A stretch of 64,000 nt of DNA from Amanita rubescens (lineage: Eukaryota > Basidiomycota > Agaricomycetes > Agaricales > Amanitaceae): positions 37,541-101,540 of the forward strand of contig WION01000200.1 in assembly GCA_015039365.1 (NCBI GenBank), in the 5' to 3' direction. The notes beneath the pieces were generated by a model. It had not been told where the DNA came from. It did not search any database and saw only the letters and a list, made by a program, of their open reading frames with translations. Both the position numbers and the translations under genes were made by a program. Position 1 is the stretch's first letter; each line of letters opens with the position of its first letter. Below are positions 1 to 63,182 of this stretch, piece by piece.

Positions 1-1830
1 CAATAGCTTGTGAGTGACATTGCACATGTTGTGAAAGGCAGTCTCATCACATCTTTTCCTATGACCAACAGGGAGTGAGTGACAGTGCACATTTTGTGAA
101 AGGCAGTCTCATCACATTTTTTCCTATAACCAACAGGTAGTGAGTGATATTGCACATTTTGTGAAAGGCAGTCTCATCAAATCTTTTGCTATGAATAACA
201 GGTTGTGAGTGAGATTGAACATTTTGAGAAAGGCAATCACATCACATCTTTTGCTATGACCAACAGCTTGTGAGTGACATTGCACATTTTGTGAAAGGCA
301 GTCTCATTGCATCTTTTTGTATGACCAACAGCAAGTGAGTGACATTGCACATTTTGTGAAAGGTAGTCTCATCACATCTTTTCCTATGACCAACAGCTTG
401 TGAGTGATATAGCACATTTTGTGAAAGGCAGTCTCATCACATCTTTTTGTAACCAATAGCAAGTGAGTTACATTGCACATTTTGTGAAAGGCAGTCTCAT
501 CACATCTCAACAGTTTGTGAGTGACATTGCACATTTGTGTAAGGTAGTCTTGTCACTATGACCAACAGCAAGTGAGTGACATCATACATTTTGTGAAGGG
601 CAGTTTCATCACATCTTTTCCTATGACCAACAGCTTGTGAGTAATATTGCACATTTTGTGAAAGGCAGTCTCATCACATCTTTTCCTATGACCAACAGCA
701 AGTGAGTGACATGGCACATTTTCTGAAAGGCAGTCTTGTCATATCTTTTGGTATGACCAACAGCAAGTGAGTGACATTGCACATTTTGTGAAAGGCAGTC
801 TCATCACATTTTTTCCTATAACCAACAGGTTGTGAGTGACATTGCACATTTTGTGAAAGGCAGTCACATCACATCTTTTGCTATGATGAACAGCTTGTGA
901 GTGGCATTGCACATCTTGTGAAAGGCAGTTTCATTACATCTTTTCCTATGACCAACAGCAAGTGAGTGACATTGCACATTTTGTGAAAGGCAGTCTCATC
1001 ACATCTTTTGGTATGTCCAACAGGGAGTGAGTGACATTGCACATTTAGTTAAAGGCTGTCTCATCACATCTTTTCATATGACCAACAGGTTGTGAGTGAC
1101 ATTGCACATTTTGTGAAAGGCAGTCACATGACATATTTTGCTGTCACCAACAGTTTGTGAGTGACATTGCACACAGACTTGCACACAGAAGTCTCATCAC
1201 ATCTTTTCCTATGACCAACAGCAAGTGAGTGACATTGCACATTTTGTGAAAGGCAGTTTCATCACATCCTTTCCTATACCAACAGCTTGTGAGTGACATT
1301 GCACATTTTGTGAAGGGCAGTCTCATCACTTATTTTGCTTTGACCAACAGCAAGTGAGTGACATTGCACATTTATTTTGTGAAAGGTAGTCTCATCACAT
1401 CTTTTCTATGACCAACAGTCTGTGAGTGACATTGCACATTTTGTGAAAGGCAGTCTTGTCACTATGACCAACAGCATGTGAGTGACATTGTACATTTTGT
1501 GAAAAGCAGTTTCTCACATCTTTTCCAATGACCAACAGCTTGTGAGTAATATTGCACATCCTGTGAAAGGCAGTCTTGTGGCAGTCCAAGTCTCATCACA
1601 TCTTTTCCCATGATCAACAGGAAGCAGTGAGTGACATTGCTCTTTTTTTGAAAGGCAGTCTCATTGCATCTTTTGATATTACCAACAGGGAGTGAGTGAC
1701 AATGCATATTTTGTGAAAGGCAGTCTCATCACATCTTTTCCTAGGACCAACAGGAAGTGAGTGACATTTCACATTTTGAGAAAGGCAGTCTCATCACATT
1801 GTTCCTATGATCAACAGCTTGTGAGTGATA
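1..1830 (+). repeat. Tandem intron-like minisatellite, 65-bp unit, about 29 units
   Basis: About 29 head-to-tail units that probably begin before the window. The consensus unit starts GTGAGTGACATTGCACA, ends CTATGACCAACAG (62 nt) and is followed by a variable 3-nt spacer. Spacers read in order include CTT, GGA, GTA, GTT, CAA, TTT, TCT, CAT and GAA; one is 6 nt (GAAGCA, near 1616). None is a stop triplet, the first base is never A and the last is always A or T. The unit opens with a fungal 5' splice-site consensus (GTGAGT) and closes with a pyrimidine-rich stretch and CAG. Bodies differ by substitutions and indels that are not multiples of three (for example the short units near 500-590 and 1440-1530). 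I saw no CpG in the array. It could be an ordinary minisatellite inside one large intron, or a run of separate introns. Confidence 0.9.
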
Positions 1831-2014: not shown

Positions 2015-2290
2015 ATGTGGTATTTATCCTTAAAACTTCAAGCAATTATCATTATTGCCAAGCTATCCTTTTGGATCGATGCATCACTTCAGCTATCAGT
2101 AGCACAAGCCTTGTATCAATACAAGCAAAAAGGCTACATTCAAAAACTAAAGACTGACATTACTGCTGACCTTCTGCACTATGGTCATAAAGATTTGGTC
2201 ACATTGCTCTATAGGAAGGTGACTCACATTGATGGTGGGTCCTTTGTCTACTCATGCACTAGTACTTATGAACAATTTATGGCAGGGTGA
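2015..2290 (+). CDS. Probable C-terminal exon of an unidentified gene downstream of the 65-bp array
   Basis: Open frame ending in TGA at 2288-2290. The exon probably starts a little inside the given start, near 2030-2043, after an AG. The first part reads AIIIIAKLSFWIDA and resembles the last exon of the two G-domain genes in this window (AILICLEHSFWIV), which also follows directly behind an intron-like array. The rest (about 70 residues, ending TYEQFMAG) shows only weak similarity, chiefly a Cys-containing patch before the end. I infer that this is the terminal exon of a third gene with the same architecture whose 5' part lies left of the window. The family is not recognised. Base composition is AT-rich and CpG-poor like its surroundings. 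Confidence 0.45.
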   Translation: MWYLSLKLQAIIIIAKLSFWIDASLQLSVAQALYQYKQKGYIQKLKTDITADLLHYGHKDLVTLLYRKVTHIDGGSFVYSCTSTYEQFMAG

Positions 2291-4579: not shown

Positions 4580-7500
4580 TCAAAGAAAACTGGGACTGGA
4601 CTTACATAATAAATTGCTAAGAACTATTTTTCTGTATTCAGCACACTCTTCATCAGATGGGCAATGCTTTATAATGAACCAATCATTGATGCCCATTAAC
4701 CTTAAGTAGTTGTCCAAGTCTTGATTAACCAGTGCATGCTGGGTGTTGAGATAAAATTTCCAGGCCTTGGTGAACCCATCATTGGGATTGTAGCCTTGCT
4801 GGACAATCCAGAAGGAATGTTCAAGACAGATGAGGATTGCTGTACATGTAATGGTAAGAAACTGTAAATATAAGAAAAGGGTAGGATTAATCAGACCAGG
4901 GAAACAATGCAAAGAAGGCACCTATGTAATTGGGAATACTTAAGTTAAGGGAATGAAAAGAATGAAATATGATCTTACATTGAATTGAGTGTTCACAAGA
5001 CCCTGAACATTGTTCATCTGTGAAATTCATGCCTATTAATGAAGTAGGGCAAAGAGAGTAGGTGGGAGAAGACAGGTACAAACTAAACAAGTTGTGAGGG
5101 TGATGTCAGCAATTCAGGACTCAGAGGTGCACAGTGACTCACAAGCTGGATGGGATTTCATGGCAACATGTCAGCAATTTGAATTGAGCAAGGAGGCACA
5201 CAGTCACTCACAAACTGGATGGGATTTCATGGCAACATGTCAGCAATTCAAATTGAGCTAGGAGGCACACAGTCTGTTACAACATGGTACGGACTCCCGC
5301 ATTATGCTTACATGATACGTCGGACATGTTTATTTTCTTATGCCTACCTTACTCGTCGTCTCCCTTATGCTCGATTCATACGGACAAGCTCATTTCCTTA
5401 CTTATACCATTCCTTGTTCCACATATGACGCCGTCTTTATACTCCTTTCGTACTTACCATTATTCATTAATTAGTACGTCTCATTGTACTTGCTAGTATA
5501 AATACCGCATGTATTCTAGAGTCGAACCCTAAGTTCGACTTAGCTGTTTATTGTCGTCTGGCAATATAACCTTACTCTTAACTCAACTACCACAATCGTC
5601 CTCAGATCCTAAGTCAACGTCTTGACTTAGTATTGAACTTATAATCTTAACGTTTGACTTAAGACTTGTAATCGTAACTAGAGTTGCCGCTGCAACTTAG
5701 GTTGAGATTAACGAGTTCGTAACACAGTTGCTCACTTGCTGGATGAGATTTCATAGCAACATGTCAGTGATGAAAATATATAAAACCATATATTATAAAA
5801 CCATATATTATAATGATAATATATTGTAGATATTTCTTATCTTATCTTCTATCTTATCTTATCACAAGATAAGATAGAAGATAAGATACTGATAATCAAA
5901 TCTATACTAAAGGATATAGATTAAGTAGATATAAATACGCTTGCGTCATAGTTACTAGATATGATTCCTTATGAATCATATATCGTCATTCTACAGCAAT
6001 CTGTCAAGAATGAACTCTATAATATCTGTCATACAGCAATATGTCAGATATGACAGAACACTATAATTTCTGTCAATCATTATGACTAGGAATAGATCAT
6101 ATGATGAGTCAATATGATGATAGCTGTGTAATACAATACACACCTTATCATCCAATAGGATAAGGTCCGTAGATAGCATAGTTTACACTTATTTGTATCT
6201 CAGACAATATAAAAGGAGGGACAATTCGTTGTTCCCTCCTAACTTCTTACTCTCATCTACACATCTTATAGTTGAGCCTCAGCTCCTATAAAGTCCCTCA
6301 AATCAACCTCCCACCTTCACAGTAAGTCAGTTCCTTACTCAGTATCATGTATGCTGCGCTGCTGCGTTGGACTCCATGATGAGGAGTCTTCCAACTTCAT
6401 CAGTCAGCAATTCAAAATGAGCTAGGAGGCACACAGTCACTCACTCCCTGGATGGCAACATTTCAGGAATTAAATCAGGTGAAGGAGGTACACAGCAACT
6501 CACCTTCTAGATATGAGGTGAATCTTTTCTATCAATTTGGAATTCTCCATGTAACTTGCTTATTACCTCCTATACACTACATTCACAAGTTACCTTCCTG
6601 CCACTTTGAAATTCTTACATTTTCCCCCTTATCATTTGCATAATTAGTATATTGTCAAATTAGCTTAATGTCATACTCACATACTGAATATCCAGGTTAA
6701 GCTTTGTCATCAATATTTGATCATGATACTTACATCCTGAAATATCTCTCATCATCATCTTGGGCCCTGGCTCAAGCAGAAGTGGACACTCACATGATCC
6801 TTCTCAATTTCAGCCACAGCTCAAGAAAATGCATTCAATTTGCACACCTGCAAATAGCAATGTCCAAACCAAGATGCAGCTTTGTGAATCAAGTTGTACT
6901 TTGTTCATTTGAGCACTCAAATTTCTACAATTCAAGAAAAATTGTACCACTGTTGAGGTATCCTCAAAGATAAACCTGAAATAGAGAGATAAGTTGAAGC
7001 AACAGCAGACAAGTGGATACAGACTTGTTCACTGCATATGCAATGCAGACCTCTAGGTTATTCTGTTGGACAGTGACAAACAACATCTTCAGTGCCAAGT
7101 TGTCAATTGACACTGCTGTCTGTTTGATTAGTTCCCCAACTTGTTCCTGATGATTACCATTGTCCTCTTGGATGGCTGGACATGCTATAAGTCCCAAGAC
7201 CAGTTGCTAAAGGAGAAGAGACATACATTCAAATTGCACATATGCACAAGGTGGAAACTTGTAGCCCTTAAGTGGCTTCTCAAATTTCTTCTCCAAGGTA
7301 ACACAAGCAATTTCTCTATTCTTCTCGTCTTCTTCATTCCTATCATAGACTTGCATGATGAGATCATCAAATTTTGTGAAGATTGCCACAACTGGAACTG
7401 TCTGTGGTCAGTCATGGTGAAGAGTTTGGAGATTCTAAACAATCTTACCATTCCCACAATATTGCTCATTGAAGAACCTCTGTTCCAATTCCAATAATGG

Positions 7501-8202
7501 GCAAGATACATCCAGAGCAAAACAAAACCTGAATGCATTGTCAGTTGCACCACATAAAGGAAGGATATCATGATAACACACCATATTGCATGGATTTGGT
7601 CCTTTACCTCAGTTGCTTTTGCCTTCTCCCGTATGAAAGAGCATACATCCTGAAGTTCCTGCTCACCTCCTGCCTCGAAACCAGGAGAATCATGGAAGAT
7701 AAATTGTGGGTTACTCTGGAATGAAAACTCATCATGGACATTATGGTTCCCTCGCTACAGCATCAAAGTCAAAGACCTGTTTAGAGAAATGTGCAAGGAT
7801 CACCTTTGAGGTGGGGTTAATCTGTCAGTGATGGGGTGTCAGATGATAGTGGGGTATCAAGTGAAGCAGATATCTTACCTGGCTGTAAACTGGATCCCTC
7901 TTTGTATTGCAGACTCCCCGCTTCAGCAGCATCGTTTTACCAGCATTTGCTCTCCCGATAACGAGGATACGGAAGTGGGTGTACTTGGCCCGGATTTTCG
8001 CAGCTTCTAGTGCCGGGTCGGTTGTCATCATTGACACAGTGGGTGCTAGACTCTCAGCTGGAGGCATAGCAACGGTTGGAGGCGCCGAATTCGAGAGGCT
8101 AGGAGGCGTACTCAGGATCTGCGATCCCCGTCCGAACATCTTCTTCAGGCGATTGCGAAATCCCTTGGACTCTTTGGCAGTCTGCGACCGTTGGTCAGCC
8201 AT
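4580..8202 (-). CDS. AIG1-like G-domain protein, copy 1 (multi-exon)
   Basis: P-loop GTPase of the AIG1/septin-like class common in Agaricomycetes; it probably binds GTP, cellular role unknown. Exon 1 (8202 to about 7885) opens MADQRSQTAKESKGFRNRLK with a basic N-terminus, then a Ser/Pro-rich linker and the G1 motif GRANAGKT. Later exons carry G3 (DSPG, near 7690), G4 (TKFD, near 7370) and a helical stretch ending EYAVNK. After several short exons comes a small array of intron-like 69-bp units holding two solo LTRs (5105-6515). Then follow exons with CSGSCEHSIQ and a last exon containing AILICLEHSFWIV, stop at 4580. Exon 1 is CpG-rich; the rest is CpG-depleted. One codon (GGA) is inserted after the P-loop relative to copy 2. 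All recognised exon frames are open, so the gene may be functional. Exon borders are read by eye from GT/AG. Confidence 0.7.
5275..5724. mobile_element. Solo LTR (450 bp)
   Basis: Begins TGTTACAAC and ends GTTCGTAACA (TG..CA ends, TGTTAC/GTAACA inverted). Flanking 5-mers CAGTC (5270-5274) and CAGTT (5725-5729) fit a 5-bp target duplication with one change. The LTR interrupts a 69-bp unit. A TATA-like AGTATAAATACC lies near 5500. It contains CpG, unlike the DNA around it, so it inserted after or escaped the CpG loss. No internal retrotransposon region is present. Confidence 0.85.
5768..6402. mobile_element. Solo LTR (635 bp) of a second family
   Basis: Begins TGATGAAAATATA and ends AACTTCATCA (inverted TGATGAA/TTCATCA). 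It is flanked by a perfect 5-bp duplication GTCAG (5763-5767 and 6403-6407), inside a 69-bp unit. A TATA-like ACAATATAAAAGG lies near 6210. A near-perfect hairpin of about 22-bp arms made of ATCTTATCTT words lies near 5838-5888. Unrelated in sequence to the LTR at 5275-5724. Confidence 0.9.
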
Positions 8203-56460: not shown

Positions 56461-59400
56461 ATGGCTGACCAACGGTTGCAGACTGCCAAAGAATCCAAGG
56501 GATTTCGCAATCGCCTGAAGAAGATGTTCGGACGGGGATCGCAGAACGCTACGCCTCCTAGCCTCTCGAATTCGGCACCTCCAACCATTGCTGTGCCTCC
56601 GAGTCCAGCTGATCTAGCACCCACTGTATCAACGATGACGATCGACCCGGTAGAAGCTGCAAAACTCCGGGCCAAGTACACCCACTTCCGTATCCTTGTC
56701 ATCGGGAGGGCGAATGCCGGTAAAACGACGCTGCTCAAGCGGGTCTGCAATACAAAGGAGGATCCGGTTTACAGCAAGGTAAGATATCCGCTTCCCTTGA
56801 TACCCTGGCACTATCATCACCCCTTCACCGACAGATTAACCCATCCTCGAAGGTGATCCTTGTGCATTTCTCTAACCAGGTTGTTGACTTTGATTCTGTA
56901 GCGAGGGATCCATAACGTCCATGACGAGTTTTCATTCAATAGCAACCCACAATTTATCTTCCACGACTCTCCCGGTTTCGAGGCAGGAGGCGAGAAGGAA
57001 CTTCAGGAAGTATGCTCTTTCATACAGGAGAAGGCAAAAGCAACTGAAGTAAAGGACCAAATCCATGTGATATGGTGCGTTATATCCTTCCTTTATGTAG
57101 CACAACTGAAATGTGTTCAGGTTTTGTTTCACTCCGGATGTATCTCGCCCATTATTGGAATTGGAACAGAGGTTCTTCAATGAGAAATATTGTGGGAATG
57201 GTAAGATCATTTAAAATCTCCAAACTCTTCATTGTGACTGACAATGAACAGTTCCAGTTGTGGCAATCTTCACGAAATTCGATGATCTCATCACGCAGGT
57301 CTATGATATAAATAAAGAAGAAGAGGAGAATAGAGAAGTTGCTTGTGCTACCTTGAAGGAGAAGTTCGAGGAGCCACTCAAGCATTATAAGTCTTCACCT
57401 TGTGCATATGTGCAATTTGAATGTATGTCTCTTCTCCTTTAGCAACCAATCTTGGGACTTATAGTGTGTCCAGCTATTGAGAAGGATGAAGGTAATCATC
57501 AGGAACAAGTTGGGAAACTAATCAAACAGACGGCGGCATCAATTGACAACTTGGCACTGAAGATGTTGTTTGTCACTGTCCAACAGAATAACCTAGAGGT
57601 CTGCATTGAATATGCAGTGAACAAGTCTGTGATTCACTTGTCTGCTGTTGCTTCAACTTATCTCTCTATTTCAGGTATATCTTTCAGGATACCTTAACAG
57701 TGGTACATTTTTTCTTGAATTGTACAGATACTATGAGTGCTCAAATAGACAAAGCATGACTTGATTTACAAGGCTGGATCTTGGTTTGGACATTGCTATT
57801 GGCAGGTATGCAAATTGAAATACATTTTCTTGAGCCATGACTGAAATTGAGAAGGATTATGTGAGAGTCCACTTCTACTTGAGCCAGGGAAGATGGTGAT
57901 GACAGATGTTTCAGGATGTAAGTATCATGACCAAATATTGATGACAAAGTTAACCTGGATGTTCAGTATGTGAGTATGACATTAAGCTAATTCAACAACA
58001 TACTAATTATGCAAATGATAAGGGGGAAAATGTAAGAATTTCAAAGTGATAGGAATATACCTTGTGAATGTAGTTTATAGGAGGTAATAAGTAACTTATA
58101 TGGGAGAACTCCAATTGATAGAAATGATTCACCTCATATCTAGAAGGTGAGGTTGCTATGTGCCTCCTTCACTGGTTTTGATTGCTGACATGTTGCCCAT
58201 CCAGGGAGTGAGTGACTGTGTGCCTCCTAGCTCAATTTGAATTGCTGACATGTTGCCATGAAATCCCATCCAGGGAGTGAGTGACTGTGTGCCTCCTAGC
58301 TCAATTTGAATTGCTGACATGTTGCCATGAAATCCCATCCAGGCAGTGAGTGACTGTGTGCCTCCTAGCTCAATTTGAATTGCTGACATGTTGCCATGAA
58401 ATCCCATCCAGCAAGTGAGTGACTTGTGCCTCCTAGATCAATTTGAATTGCTGACCATGTTGCCATGAAATCCCATCCAGCAAGTGAGTGACTGTGTGCC
58501 TCCTAGATCAATTTGAATTGCTGACATGTTGCCATGAAATCCCATCCAGCTTGTGAGTGACTGTGTGCCTCCTAGCTCAATTTGAATTGCTGACATGTTG
58601 CCATGAAATCCCATCCAGGCAGTGAGTGACTGTGTGCCTCCTAGCTCAATTTGAATTGCTGACATGTGCCATGAATCCCATCCAGCAAGTGAGTGACTGT
58701 GTGCCTCCTAGATCAATTTGAATTGCTGACATGTTGCCATGAAATCCCATCCAGGGAAGTGAGTGACTGTGTGCCTCCTAGCTCAATTTGAATTGCTGGA
58801 CATGTTGCCATGAAATCCCATCCAGGGAGTGAGTGACTGTGTGCCTCCTAGCTCAATTTGAATTGCTGACATGTTGCCATGAAATCCCATCCAGGGAGTG
58901 AGTGACTGTGTGCCTCCTAGCTCAATTTGAATTGCTGACATGTTGCCATGAAATCCCATCCAGGGAGTGAGTGACTGTGTGCCTCCTAGCTTCAATTTGA
59001 ATTGCTGACATGTTGCCATGAAATCCCATCCAGCTTGTGAGTGACTGTGTGCCTCCTAGCTCAATTTGAATTGCTGACATGTTGCCATGAAAATCCCATC
59101 CAGCGAGTGAGTGACTGTGTGCCTCCTAGCTCAATTTGAATTGCTGACATGTTGCCATGAAATCCCATCCAGCGAGTGAGTGACTGTGTGCCTCCTAGCT
59201 CAATTGAATTGCTGACATGTTGCCATGAAAATCCCATCCAGCTTGTGAGTGACTGTGTGCCTCCTAGCTCAATTTGAATTGCTGACATGTTGCCATGAAA
59301 TCCCATCCAGCGAGTGAGTGACTGTGTGCCTCCTAGCTCAATTTGAATTGCTGACATGTTGCCATGAAATCCCATCCAGTTTGTGAGTGACTGTGTGCCT

Positions 59401-60776
59401 CCTAGCTCAATTTGAATTGCTGACATGTTGCCATGAAATCCCATCCAGCTTGTGAGTGACTGTGTGCCTCCTAGCTCAATTTGGAATTGCTGACATGTTG
59501 CCATGAAATCCCATCCAGGGAGTGAGTGACTGTGTGCCTCCTAGCTCAATTTGAATTGCTGACATGTTGCCATGAAATCCCATCCAGGGAGTGAGTGACT
59601 GTGTGCTCCTAGCTCAATTTGAATTGCTGACATGTTGCCATGAAATTCCATCCAGCTTGTGAGTGACTGTGTGCCTCCTAGCTCAATTTGAATTGCTGAC
59701 ATGTTGCCATGAAATCCCATCCAGCTTGTGAGTGACTGTGTGCCTCCTAGCTCAATTTGAATTGCTGACATGTTGCCATGAAATCCCATCCAGCTTGTGA
59801 GTGACTGTGTGCCTCCTAGCTCAATTGAATTGCTGACATGTTGCCATGAAATCCCATCCAGGGAGTGAGTGACTGTGTGCCTCCTAGCTCAATTTGAATT
59901 GCTGACATGTTGCCATGAAATCCCATCCAGCGAGTGAGTGACTGTGTGCCTCCTAGCTCAATTTGAATTGCTGACATGTTGCCATGAAATCCCATCCAGC
60001 TTGTGAGTGACTGTGTGCCTCCTAGCTCAATTTGAATTGCTGACATGTTGCCATGAAATCCCATCCAGGGAGTGAGTGACTGTGTGCCTCCTAGCTCAAT
60101 TTGAATTGCTGACATGCTTGCCATGAAATCCCATCCAGTTTGTGAGTGGACTGTGTGCCTCCTAGCTCAATTTGAATTGCTGACATGTTGCCATGAATTC
60201 CCATCCAGGAAGTGAGTCACTGCATTTCCTGAATTACTAACATCACTCTCACATCTTGTTTAGTTTGTATCTGTCTTCTCCTACCTACTCTCTTTCCTCT
60301 ACTTTATTAATAGGCATCCATTTCACAGGTGAACCATGTTCAGGGTCTTATGGACACTCAATTCAATGTAAGATCATATCTCATTCTTTTCATTCCCTTC
60401 AATCAAGTATTCCAATTACATAGGCACCTTCTTTGCATTGTTTCATTGGTCTGATTAATTTTACCCTTTCTCTTATATTTACAGTTTCTTACCATTACCT
60501 GTACAGCCATTCTCATCTGTCTTGAACATTCCTTCTGGCTTGTCCAGCAAGGCTGCAATTCCAATGATGGCTTCACCAAGGCCTGGAAATATTATCTCAA
60601 CACCCAGCATGCACTGGTGAACAAGACTTGGACAACTACTTGAGGTCAATGGGCATCAATGATTGGTTCATCATGAAGCATTGCCCATCTGAAGAAGAGT
60701 GTGCTGAATACAGAAAAATAGTTCTTAGCAATTTATTATGTAAGTCCTGTTTCTGTCTTCTTGGGCTGGAATCCTA
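56461..60776 (+). CDS. AIG1-like G-domain protein, copy 2 (contains the large intron-like array)
   Basis: Inverted paralogue of the gene at 4580-8202. Exon 1 (56461-56778) is MADQRLQTAKESKGFRNRLK, Ser/Pro linker, then ILVIGRANAGKTTLLKRVCN (G1). Exon 2 (56902-57074) has G3 FIFHDSPGFEAGGEKELQEV. Exon 3 (57121-57200) reads CFTPDVSRPLLELEQRFF, and exon 4 (57252-57422) has G4 VAIFTKFDDLITQVYD. Exon 5 (from 57443) includes NLALKMLFVTVQQNNLEVC. Short exons lead into the array at 58156-60212. After it come CSGSYGHSIQ and the last exon with TAILICLEHSFW. In the last exon one base is missing relative to copy 1 (CTGGTGAACAAG against CTGGTTAATCAAG, near 60620), giving an early stop; the copy-1-like frame would have ended at about 60776. 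It retains more CpG than copy 1. The G domain is intact and the C-terminus is probably shortened. Confidence 0.68.
58156..60212 (+). repeat. Tandem intron-like array, 69-bp unit, about 30 units
   Basis: Consensus unit: GTGAGTGACTGTGTGCC at the 5' end, an internal TTGCTGAC (CTRAC branch-site consensus) about 26 nt before the end, and CCCATCCAG at the 3' end: 66 nt plus a variable spacer. The spacers in order are GGA, GGA, GCA, CAA, CAA, CTT, GCA, CAA, GGAA, GGA (three times), CTT, CGA, CGA, CTT, CGA, TTT, CTT, GGA, GGA, CTT (three times), GGA, CGA, CTT, GGA, TTT, GAA. Only one is not 3 nt. Bodies are nearly identical apart from scattered one-base indels. The first unit (GTGAGGTTGC...) and last unit (GTGAGTCACTG...ATTACTAACATC...TTGTTTAG) are diverged, and the last has a perfect TACTAAC. 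The opposite strand can be read as a 23-residue repeat, but indels break it. Confidence 0.92.
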
Positions 60777-61290: not shown

Positions 61291-63182
61291 ACCGCGGATG
61301 AAGACATGAGAATAGGCGGAATGATTTCTGCCTTCAGAGCATAACATGACTTATGATCCGCCAATGACAACATTGGAATTGGCGGAACATTTCTCTGTCT
61401 TTTCATCAGCCGATGATGGCATTTGAATAACTATTATTCCGCCGATGTCAATGTTAAAATAGGCGGATCTCTCGTTTCTATTTTAATGTTAAATAATACA
61501 AAGCGTCTTGTGCCAGGTTAAAGTACTATCCGCGAATTCACACATCAGAATTGGCGGATGAGCAGGAACATATTGAAGAGATTGATTGATGTTGAGAAGT
61601 GAAGTAGTTGTGACGAGAGTCCATGCTCAAGCGTGAGTGTCGCTAGCAGCTTGTGTGAGAGGCGAGGCCATTCATGAGAGAGATAATCATGGTGGGAGAC
61701 GAAGATAGCTGTGGCGAGACTCTGCACTCAAGCCCGAGTTGTCATTAGCACGTTGAACGAGAGGCCAAGTCATTCCCTAGAGAGATATTGCTGTTGAGAA
61801 ACAAACGTAGCTGTGACTGAGACTCTGCGCTCAAGCCTGAGTGTCGTTAGCACGTTGAACGAGAGGCCAAGTCATTCCCTAGAGAGATATTGATGTTGGA
61901 CTCTGCGCTCAAGCCTGAGTGTCATTAGCAGCGTCAAACGAGAGGCCAAGTCATTCCCTAGAGAGATATCAACGTCGAGAAACGAATGTAGCTGTCAAGC
62001 CCGAGTGTTGTTGGTGGCTTTGAATGAGATGCCAAGCCATTGATGTTGAGAGAGAATTGATGCAGAGATGTGAACGTAGCTGTAATGAAACTCTGCGCTC
62101 AAGCCCGAGTGTCATCAGCAGCGTTGAATGAGAGCCAGGCTATTGGTGAGAGGAGAGCTGCGTGGCAATGATAAAGTGGAAGCCGCCGATTCAGACATCG
62201 GAATTGGCGGAGGCGTCCAAACATTTTCCGATCAACATATTTGAGTATCCGCCGATTCAATCGTCCTGAATCGGCGGATGCCTGAGCAACACAGGAACAT
62301 CATTAAGTAAAAAGAGATGATCAGACTTCTTACCCAGTGTGTTTTGATTACTAGAGCGGTGTGGCAACGTGAAAGTGGAAGCCGCCGATTCAGACATCGG
62401 AATCGGCGGAGGCGTCCAAAACATTGCCCAATAGGATGGTGGGTGGGGATATAGGAAGATGTTCCCACGCGATACGAACTTCTGGACCTAATGTCCACCA
62501 ATAGGTACGTATGTTATGAAGGCCATATATGCACTTGCTGATGTGTAAAAGGTTGGGGGGATGCAGAAGTGCTTACAGAACGTAGGAAAGAGGCTGAATT
62601 GTTGAGGTGGCAGGTACGTCATGTTCACATATACCGTCGTCATCGTCAGTGGACATTTACAACTGATGGACTTGTGCCAGCTGTCTTGTGTTACGCCGCA
62701 TATGCAATTGTCAACATCGGCGGATGATCACACCGCGTATCTGATTGTCAACATCGGCGGATGATCACACCGCTTCTCTGTGCACCAAGCCGAATAGTAC
62801 AAGAATATGAAGAGATATGCCATGTGAGTACTTAATGCCCACCAATGATGACGTTAATAGTGGCAGACTCCACGCATGCCACCGTCATCCGCCAATAACA
62901 AGGTTCAAGTAGGTGGACCATCTCTCAGATATACCCAGAAACCTTCGCCACTGACGACGTTCAAGTACACCGCTCAGGCATACCAATGCCGTCCGCCGAT
63001 AACGACATTCAAATAGGCGGACCGTCTGCTCAGATATACCCAGAACCTTCGCCACTGTGGACGTTCAAGTACACCGGTCAGCTATACCAACGCCGTCCGC
63101 CTATAACAACGTTCAAATAGGCGGACAATGTGCTCAGAAATATCACCATCATCCGCCGATAACAATGTTCAAGTAGGCGGAA
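61291..63182. repeat. Cluster of about 13 dispersed ~30-bp palindromes
   Basis: Imperfect inverted repeats with arms TCCGCC...GGCGGA and an A/T-rich centre close to GATAACNACATTCAAATA. Clear copies: 61292-61320, 61357-61386, 61438-61467, 61529-61558, 62182-62213, 62248-62278, 62381-62412, 62693-62723, 62732-62762, 62888-62917, 62992-63021, 63096-63125 and 63152-63181, plus weaker ones near 61406, 62944 and 63056. Spacing is irregular (about 10 to 600 bp) and the copies lie in otherwise unrelated sequence. The centres differ while the outer six bases are kept. They could be a miniature transposable element, protein-binding sites or transcribed hairpins. Confidence 0.8.
61590..62150. repeat. 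Degenerate ~100-bp tandem repeat, about six units
   Basis: Units contain GTAGCTGTGA, GACTCTGCGCTCAAGCC, GAGTGTC.TTAGCA, TTGAACGAGAGGCCAAG and TCATTCCCTAGAGAGATAT in that order, with length changes between units. The second to fourth units are the most similar. No conserved reading frame. Confidence 0.75.

Follow-up and report, generated by a model that had tools for sequence, protein, structure and literature searches.

Amanita rubescens carries, within a family of GTPase genes, tandem arrays of intron-shaped units that follow one another one codon apart, and we consider it very probable that each unit is a U2-type spliceosomal intron, that each spacer is a one-codon exon, and that the two were multiplied together by tandem duplication. 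The gene in question lies in a stretch of 64,000 nucleotides (nt), here called the window, which corresponds to positions 37541-101540 of contig C114 in the 75.7 Mb assembly. Plain in this DNA and in the rest of the genome are the anatomy of the array, a 3-nt rule for its spacers, a purge of stop triplets, the conservation of the units' own splice sites, and exons on both sides. An earlier note on the window had proposed introns with single-codon micro-exons; the conservation of the splice letters, the genome-wide 3-nt spacers and the stop purge now back this proposal, which, like our own reading, is known from DNA alone.

In the window, Tandem Repeats Finder reports a repeat at 58196-60222 with a period of 69, 29.3 copies and 95% matches. 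When boundaries are read as [CT]AG-spacer-GTGAG, we find 31, namely a flanking AAG and 30 array spacers running from GGA (58205) to GAA (60209-60211), of which 29 are 3 nt long and one is 4 nt (GGAA). The array of about 30 intron-shaped units described in the earlier note is thus real (30 spacers, 58147-60211), and all seven of the spacer triplets it named (GGA, GCA, CAA, CTT, CGA, TTT and GAA) are there, with no stop among them. Its span of 58156..60212 needs correction at the left, as 58156 sits within a first, shortened unit whose donor is at 58147, and its near-constant body of 66 nt describes 20 of the 28 bodies listed, with the other 8 being 64-67 nt long. Its count of 29 in 30 spacers at 3 nt was also right, but in the window copy alone this constancy is not significant against the body indel rate, because 8 changed bodies over 66 positions predict fewer than one changed spacer. 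Since the window's spacers are weak evidence on their own, we examined the rest of the genome, and it is from there that the weight comes. The window copy also has more body indels than its close paralogs L034 and L035, in which all array steps are 69 nt; given these extra indels and the loss of one base from its C-terminal exon, the copy is either in decay or affected by assembly errors.

The body of the window array (A-type) has at least 650 matches in the genome. Outside this body, which our search pattern (GTGAGTNNNV N{40,70} CAG NNN GTGAGT) omits, we observe 2688 matches with 3-nt spacers versus 8 for the reversed pattern used as a control. With the same pattern family, spacers of 2 nt give 24 matches versus 16 in the control and those of 4 nt give 14 versus 8, while the GTAAGT version of the 3-nt pattern gives 329 versus 2. 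Boundaries of this kind number in the thousands across the genome, and the introns at many of them are strongly diverged. A 6-nt search (46 against 43) was not used, its control being inflated because reversed GTGAGT overlaps itself. A chance origin of the boundary pattern is ruled out by these reversed controls. Among spacers next to any body, the six VRA triplets occur 1880 times (control 0) and triplets beginning with T altogether 552 times (control 2), whereas TAA and TGA together occur once (control 1), so T is tolerated in the first spacer position and these stops are not. Strict YAG-N3-GTRAGT boundaries hold no stop triplet, either among the 563 in 20 loci and window pieces or among the 89, 55, 22 and 90 in loci L054, L055, L056 and L057, respectively. 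In viral contigs, a two-exon pattern had 9 matching stretches, which look like repeats of an unrelated kind.

The same rule is seen in paralogs of the window gene. Exon 1 of this gene has at least 30 close copies in the genome (split matches counted once), and 19 of the 20 genome stretches fetched by exon matches contain an array. Together with the window gene and a truncated copy, these 19 loci make up 21 sequences in which 507 of 512 spacers, flanking ones included, are exactly 3 nt, the exceptions being three of 6 nt (GGCCCA once and ACTGCA twice) and two of 4 nt (CTTA and GGAA). None of the 512 is a stop, where about 23 would be expected among 438 spacers (identical arrays merged) if the three positions were independent, a figure that is a rough guide as the units are not independent. 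Hence, as in micro-exons, the spacers are multiples of 3 without an in-phase stop. Arrays with more diverged units follow suit: L057 and L054 are near-identical copies (99.7%) of one gene tail, with units that are about 73% alike and homologous in register, and 3-nt spacers occupy 105 of 110 and 102 of 105 boundaries, respectively. In L055, the fraction is 66 of 74, a count that takes in ordinary sequence before the array.

Evidence that individual units are under splicing constraint comes largely from L057, in which units were located with the 12 boundary letters masked (n = 116). In this search, the acceptor AG is conserved at 99/98%, the donor G at 98% and the donor T at 93%, whereas the spacer columns are conserved at 40-57% and the other body columns at 67-94%. 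The boundary itself is 12 nt in 108 of the 112 measurable cases, with two of 15, one of 13 and one of 14 nt. In the 24 aligned rows of array B, a second array in the window with another body, the GTGAGT columns are likewise unchanged and the spacer columns the most variable. Common departures at the boundaries are those that splicing tolerates (GTAAGT, TAG and GCAAGT). In GC-AG introns, a GCAAGT donor is the known rule. All seven GC donors that we observe, six in L057 and one in L055, are GCAAGT, with no other GCNAGT, and all seven have A at +3, yet only 17 of the 116 L057 units do. The units therefore read as U2-type GT-AG introns, with a purine at +3 and GC donors as GCAAGT, and a minority of boundaries are weaker. 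A branch-like CTNAY, which would serve as the branch site, is found in 68 of 96 L057 bodies (against an average of 30.9 and a maximum of 47 in shuffles), 35 of 59 in L055 (a narrow result, shuffle maximum 34), 17 of 26 in array B, 29 of 30 in L034 and 29 of 33 in L043, above the maximum of 500 shuffles in each of the five sets. Strict CTRAY is present in 29 of 30 L034 bodies (shuffle mean 4.2, maximum 9) and holds only in the A-type; because it is rare in the older bodies, their branch site must be CTNAY or another form. The contrast between splice letters and the remaining columns is explained by a spliceosome acting on each unit and not by a single large intron, and the pattern of splice sites and spacers fits selection on the splice sites of the units and on one-codon exons.

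The GTPase context described in the earlier note is confirmed: GTPase exons precede the array, an exon follows it, and the junctions with the flanking exons, placed by eye, are in phase 0 at either side. P0001, an annotated model that matches the window gene, contains Pfam MMR_HSR1 above the cut-off, and the boundaries of exons 1-8 were placed by eye against P0001 and a second annotated model, P0006. Putative one-codon exons also appear outside the array. With the loci aligned on the GAT site, GAT is found in 14 of the 15 rows listed (GAG in L041), and TAT in all 15, its following donor being GTGGGT in L043. The TTT after the array is present in 14 of 15 aligned rows and absent in L041, with L036, L038 and L039 not placed in this alignment. 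As GAT, TAT and AAG lie between introns of unique sequence and TTT comes after the array, one-codon exons would not be confined to the repeats. For the 13-codon exon, two starts 15 nt apart were considered, and we prefer the downstream one, at 60329, since L043 lacks 1 nt immediately before it. The C-terminal exon has 26 matches in the genome; it is open in 16 of 18 copies found by script, with a pooled pN/pS of 0.54, and one GTPase exon has a pN/pS of 0.12 (6 copies found by script, 5 open). A segment of P0013 from Phlegmacium glaucopus resembles the C-terminal exon when read by eye.

Spacers and bodies differ sharply in their diversity. For the A-type, we compiled 344 units, leaving aside arrays that nearly duplicate others, the truncated copy, non-66-nt bodies and non-3-nt spacers, and in this set diversity per site is 0.571 in the spacers versus 0.019 in the bodies, a 30-fold difference. 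Hypermutation of the spacers is an unlikely cause because spacers and bodies have similar rates of rare variants: 0.0021 per nt for rare triplets versus 0.0016 for rare body alleles among 320 core units, a comparison carried by two rare triplets. We thus left this candidate aside as unsupported. Neighboring spacers are identical more often than in shuffles (85 of 327 versus a shuffled mean of 58 and maximum of 82). The A-type spacers look like an old and small repertoire of about ten codons in reshuffled order, and the contrast with the bodies may reflect either selection for a mixture of codons or a homogenization of the bodies that stops at the spacers.

Codon choice is also skewed. In B-type spacers (n = 186), the last base is A in 51%, T in 46%, G in 4% and C in none, whereas the third bases of 303 codons in four L034 exons are even (A/C/G/T, 21/28/25/26%). 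Spacer codons in L055 and L057 end nearly always in A or T. Avoidance of NAG, which would create a second acceptor, and of C before the donor G, which would create CpG, would explain most of this bias and not all. The predicted tails are gene-specific, being rich in Q/K/E/L in L057, in G/E/L/R in L055, and in G/A/R/L/F in the A-type. Among 18 tests for amphipathic or heptad order in these tails, nothing consistent emerged, the lowest p values being 0.009 (period 4, L057) and 0.014 (period 3.5, array B).

Taken as a mechanism, the proposal is that head-to-tail duplication acted repeatedly on a segment made of one intron and one codon. Each unit would be removed as an ordinary U2-type spliceosomal intron, each 3-nt spacer would be joined into the messenger RNA as a phase 0 one-codon exon, and the C-terminal part of the GTPase would gain a variable tail, from about 9 residues to more than 100 in length, with each codon a separate exon. 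As each spliced repeat would add one sense codon, the gain, loss and shuffling of units would keep the frame. We infer that RNA is spliced at these sites, that the spacers are for the most part included constitutively, and that the tail is translated. As to what the tail might do, our guess is that it gives the GTPase a variable segment for interaction or recognition. A more speculative extension, which we hold only tentatively and think somewhat improbable, is that the family generates diversity: duplication and shuffling of intron and codon would permute single tail residues, the bodies would be homogenized separately, either by gene conversion that halts at the spacers or by renewed copying of introns, and about ten kinds of codons would be kept by selection. 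In that case the tail would serve recognition and change quickly, with self/non-self or antiviral sensing as examples.

The most conservative alternative is a minisatellite located in one large intron, or in the 3′ untranslated region after an early stop, whose boundaries merely resemble splice sites. The window array does consist of tandem units in the minisatellite range of 10-100 bp, the annotated A. rubescens models examined (P0001, P0002, P0004-P0007 and P0012) end before it, and read-through past exon 8 reaches a stop within the next intron. However, a minisatellite predicts free drift at the boundaries, whereas the splice letters are among the most conserved columns and the spacers the most variable; together with GC donors that carry a compensating A, spacers held at 3 nt, purged stops and an exon after the array that is conserved among paralogs, this makes such an origin quite improbable. 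A different possibility is that the introns are spliced but most spacers are skipped, or are included in changing combinations, such that the array would switch splicing or supply alternative tails in place of a fixed peptide. The frame survives whichever subset is used, and micro-exons are described as hard for the splicing machinery to recognize and as skippable (PMC7392893). Constant skipping would neither hold 3 nt nor purge stops, and partial inclusion is compatible with the data; overall, we regard mostly skipped spacers as unlikely. The likelihoods that we attach to these alternatives do not sum to one because skipping overlaps the reading of one-codon exons in all but constitutive inclusion.

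Insertion concerns the origin of the arrays and is compatible with one-codon exons: here, copies of one intron would have been placed, in the manner of introner-like elements, between the codons of an existing coding stretch. Such an origin would account for the commonest A-type body (248 of 344 units) being preceded by 11 different triplets and for 80% of the 2302 within-array unit pairs with identical bodies differing in their upstream spacer. It would also require insertion at every codon boundary in the same phase, which is unlikely, and both the excess of adjacent identical spacers, which tandem duplication predicts, and the homology in register of the old-array units speak against it, such that we give it little credence. 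Finally, the minus strand of the 69-nt units could be read as a protein repeat of 23 residues with one variable, and in the L034 array this strand is indeed open for 662 codons in one frame. A 23-codon period easily leaves a stop-free frame by chance, however; the three minus frames of the window copy hold 18, 23 and 19 stops, the L057 stretch tested (65-nt period) has no minus-strand run above 185 codons, and neither the plus-strand splice constraints nor the TRA purge are predicted. On account of the stops in the window and the short runs in L057, we reject an antisense coding repeat as having almost no likelihood.

Several observations weigh against one-codon exons joined by tandemly duplicated introns. 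The end of the annotated models before the array, already mentioned, is one. Among the loci, L042 was fetched by its GTPase exons and has no array, L056, considered as a possible allele of L054, matches it over no more than about 2.4 kb of the array and was therefore not used in the unit tests, and of the nine non-A-type arrays listed, at least five could be linked to a GTPase exon, lying 1.4-1.8 kb downstream of it on the same strand. Two places, C749 and C13:582 kb, hold 13 of the 24 spacers of 2 nt and 5 of the 14 of 4 nt, and the genome-wide stop count covers TAA and TGA only. Boundaries off YAG-N3-GTRAGT number 33 of 117 in L057, 16 of 60 in L055 and 1 of 27 in array B; they are partly alignment slips and partly weak donors or AAG acceptors, the weak donors including GTCAGT (six in L057, one in L055) and GTGAAT (four in L057). 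Few of the older bodies contain strict CTRAY (2 of 96 in L057, 5 of 59 in L055 and 0 of 26 in array B), and YTRAY occurs in 13 of 96 L057 bodies versus 38.5 in shuffles. Ordinary donors favor G as the last exon base, which here is almost never G, a departure that is not fully explained. For the C-terminal exon, there is no Pfam match above the cut-off, and a protein search with the corresponding region of P0013 returned P0013 as its sole match, so its conservation rests on paralogs.

Micro-exon genes (MEGs) of schistosomes have a coding sequence largely made up of very short exons, in multiples of 3 and in runs of exons 6-36 nt long, with variable products, and the exons are several codons long while the introns are not a tandem satellite. 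Introner-like elements are near-identical introns dispersed over unrelated genes. The A. rubescens arrays share with MEGs the very short exons in multiples of 3, but these would be one codon each, with spacers of 3 and rarely 6 nt in place of 6-36 nt; they share with introner-like elements the multiplication in one genome, but their units stand head to tail, one codon apart. MEGs are reported from schistosomes (PMC5825161), and introner-like elements from fungi, as introns multiplying within one genome (PMC4457414). A 3 bp micro-exon is known in Drosophila homothorax (PMC7392893) and 1 nt micro-exons in plant APC11 and VPS55 (PMC8831610); like the A. rubescens spacers, they measure 3 nt or less between ordinary spliceosomal introns and are often missed by annotation, but they are described as one or two per gene, whereas A. 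rubescens has tens to more than 100 in a row among related introns. In the potato RNA-dependent RNA polymerase (RdRp) gene, an intron was gained by tandem duplication and inherited its splice signals (PMC4974935), a single new intron as compared to runs of tens to more than 100 units across a gene family. Stwintrons, an unusual arrangement of fungal U2 introns in which one intron interrupts a splicing element of another (PMC8469720), are nested, whereas the A. rubescens introns are complete, successive and 3 nt apart. The earlier note had supposed the phenomenon to be undescribed, and we found no account of comparable arrays among the matches listed in a search of the open-access literature.

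If the reading is correct, more than 100 consecutive codons would each be an exon, at a cost of about 20 nt of intron per coding nt, and the arrays would test how small an exon can be and still be defined, and how efficient splicing in series is. They would also show how a coding region can house a growing satellite and stay intact, offer a direct view of intron multiplication, and imply that the annotation of such families in mushrooms misses their tails.

Table 1. Features of the window that relate to the GTPase genes and their arrays
Feature	Position	Strand	Remarks
Array B, with another body (mostly 62 nt) and the same YAG-NNN-GTGAGT grammar	1..1828	+	one 6-nt spacer (GAAGCA), other 28 of 3 nt
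Probable C-terminal exon of the array B gene (IIIIAKLSFWIDASLQ..HYGHKDLVTLL)	2041..2218	+	by eye; similar stretch 3′ of the L055 array
Inverted GTPase paralog; array down to few units and broken by about 1.2 kb of other sequence	4727..8202	-	
Exon 1, P-loop GRANAGKTTLL	56461..56778	+	open; shares 96-100% identity with nine further full-length copies in this genome
Exons 2-7, with ordinary introns	56835-56852, 56902-57074, 57121-57200, 57252-57422, 57474-57624, 57675-57702	+	
Exon 8, HDLIYKAGSWFGHCYWQ, phase 0 end	57755..57805	+	paralog alignment; P0001 reads HDLIYKAASWFAHCYWQ
Putative one-codon exon GAT (TTTCAG/GAT/GTAAGT), between two non-repeated introns	57915..57917	+	
Putative one-codon exon TAT (TTCAG/TAT/GTGAGT)	57967..57969	+	
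Putative one-codon exon AAG, directly 5′ of the array	58144..58146	+	missing with its surroundings in L036, L038 and L041
Tandem array of 30 intron-shaped units (GTGAGT..CTGAC..ATCCAG)	58147..60208	+	29 spacers between units: 28 of 3 nt, one GGAA
30th (last) array spacer, GAA	60209..60211	+	followed by non-repeated intron GTGAGTCACTGC..CTAAC..TTTAG; paralog alignment
Putative one-codon exon TTT, after the array (TTTAG/TTT/GTATCT)	60264..60266	+	paralog alignment
13-codon exon VNHVQGLMDTQFN, both ends phase 0	60329..60367	+	paralog alignment
C-terminal exon FLTITCTAILICLEHSFWLVQQG..	60485..60739	+	one-base deletion in the window copy

Array B, at the left edge of the window, is presumably the end of a related, older-bodied gene that starts outside it. 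Elsewhere in the genome, the arrays at C749:2137-4206 and C13:581982-583222 have several 2-nt or 4-nt spacers and represent decaying genes or assembly errors. The minus strand of C223:1460595-1463084 holds a GTAAGT-type array whose body, of about 68 nt, is of a third kind and whose spacers include TAT, GAA, AGA and ACA. Beside the GTPase gene of the window, positions 61585-63142 hold more tandem repeats, with periods of 37-104.

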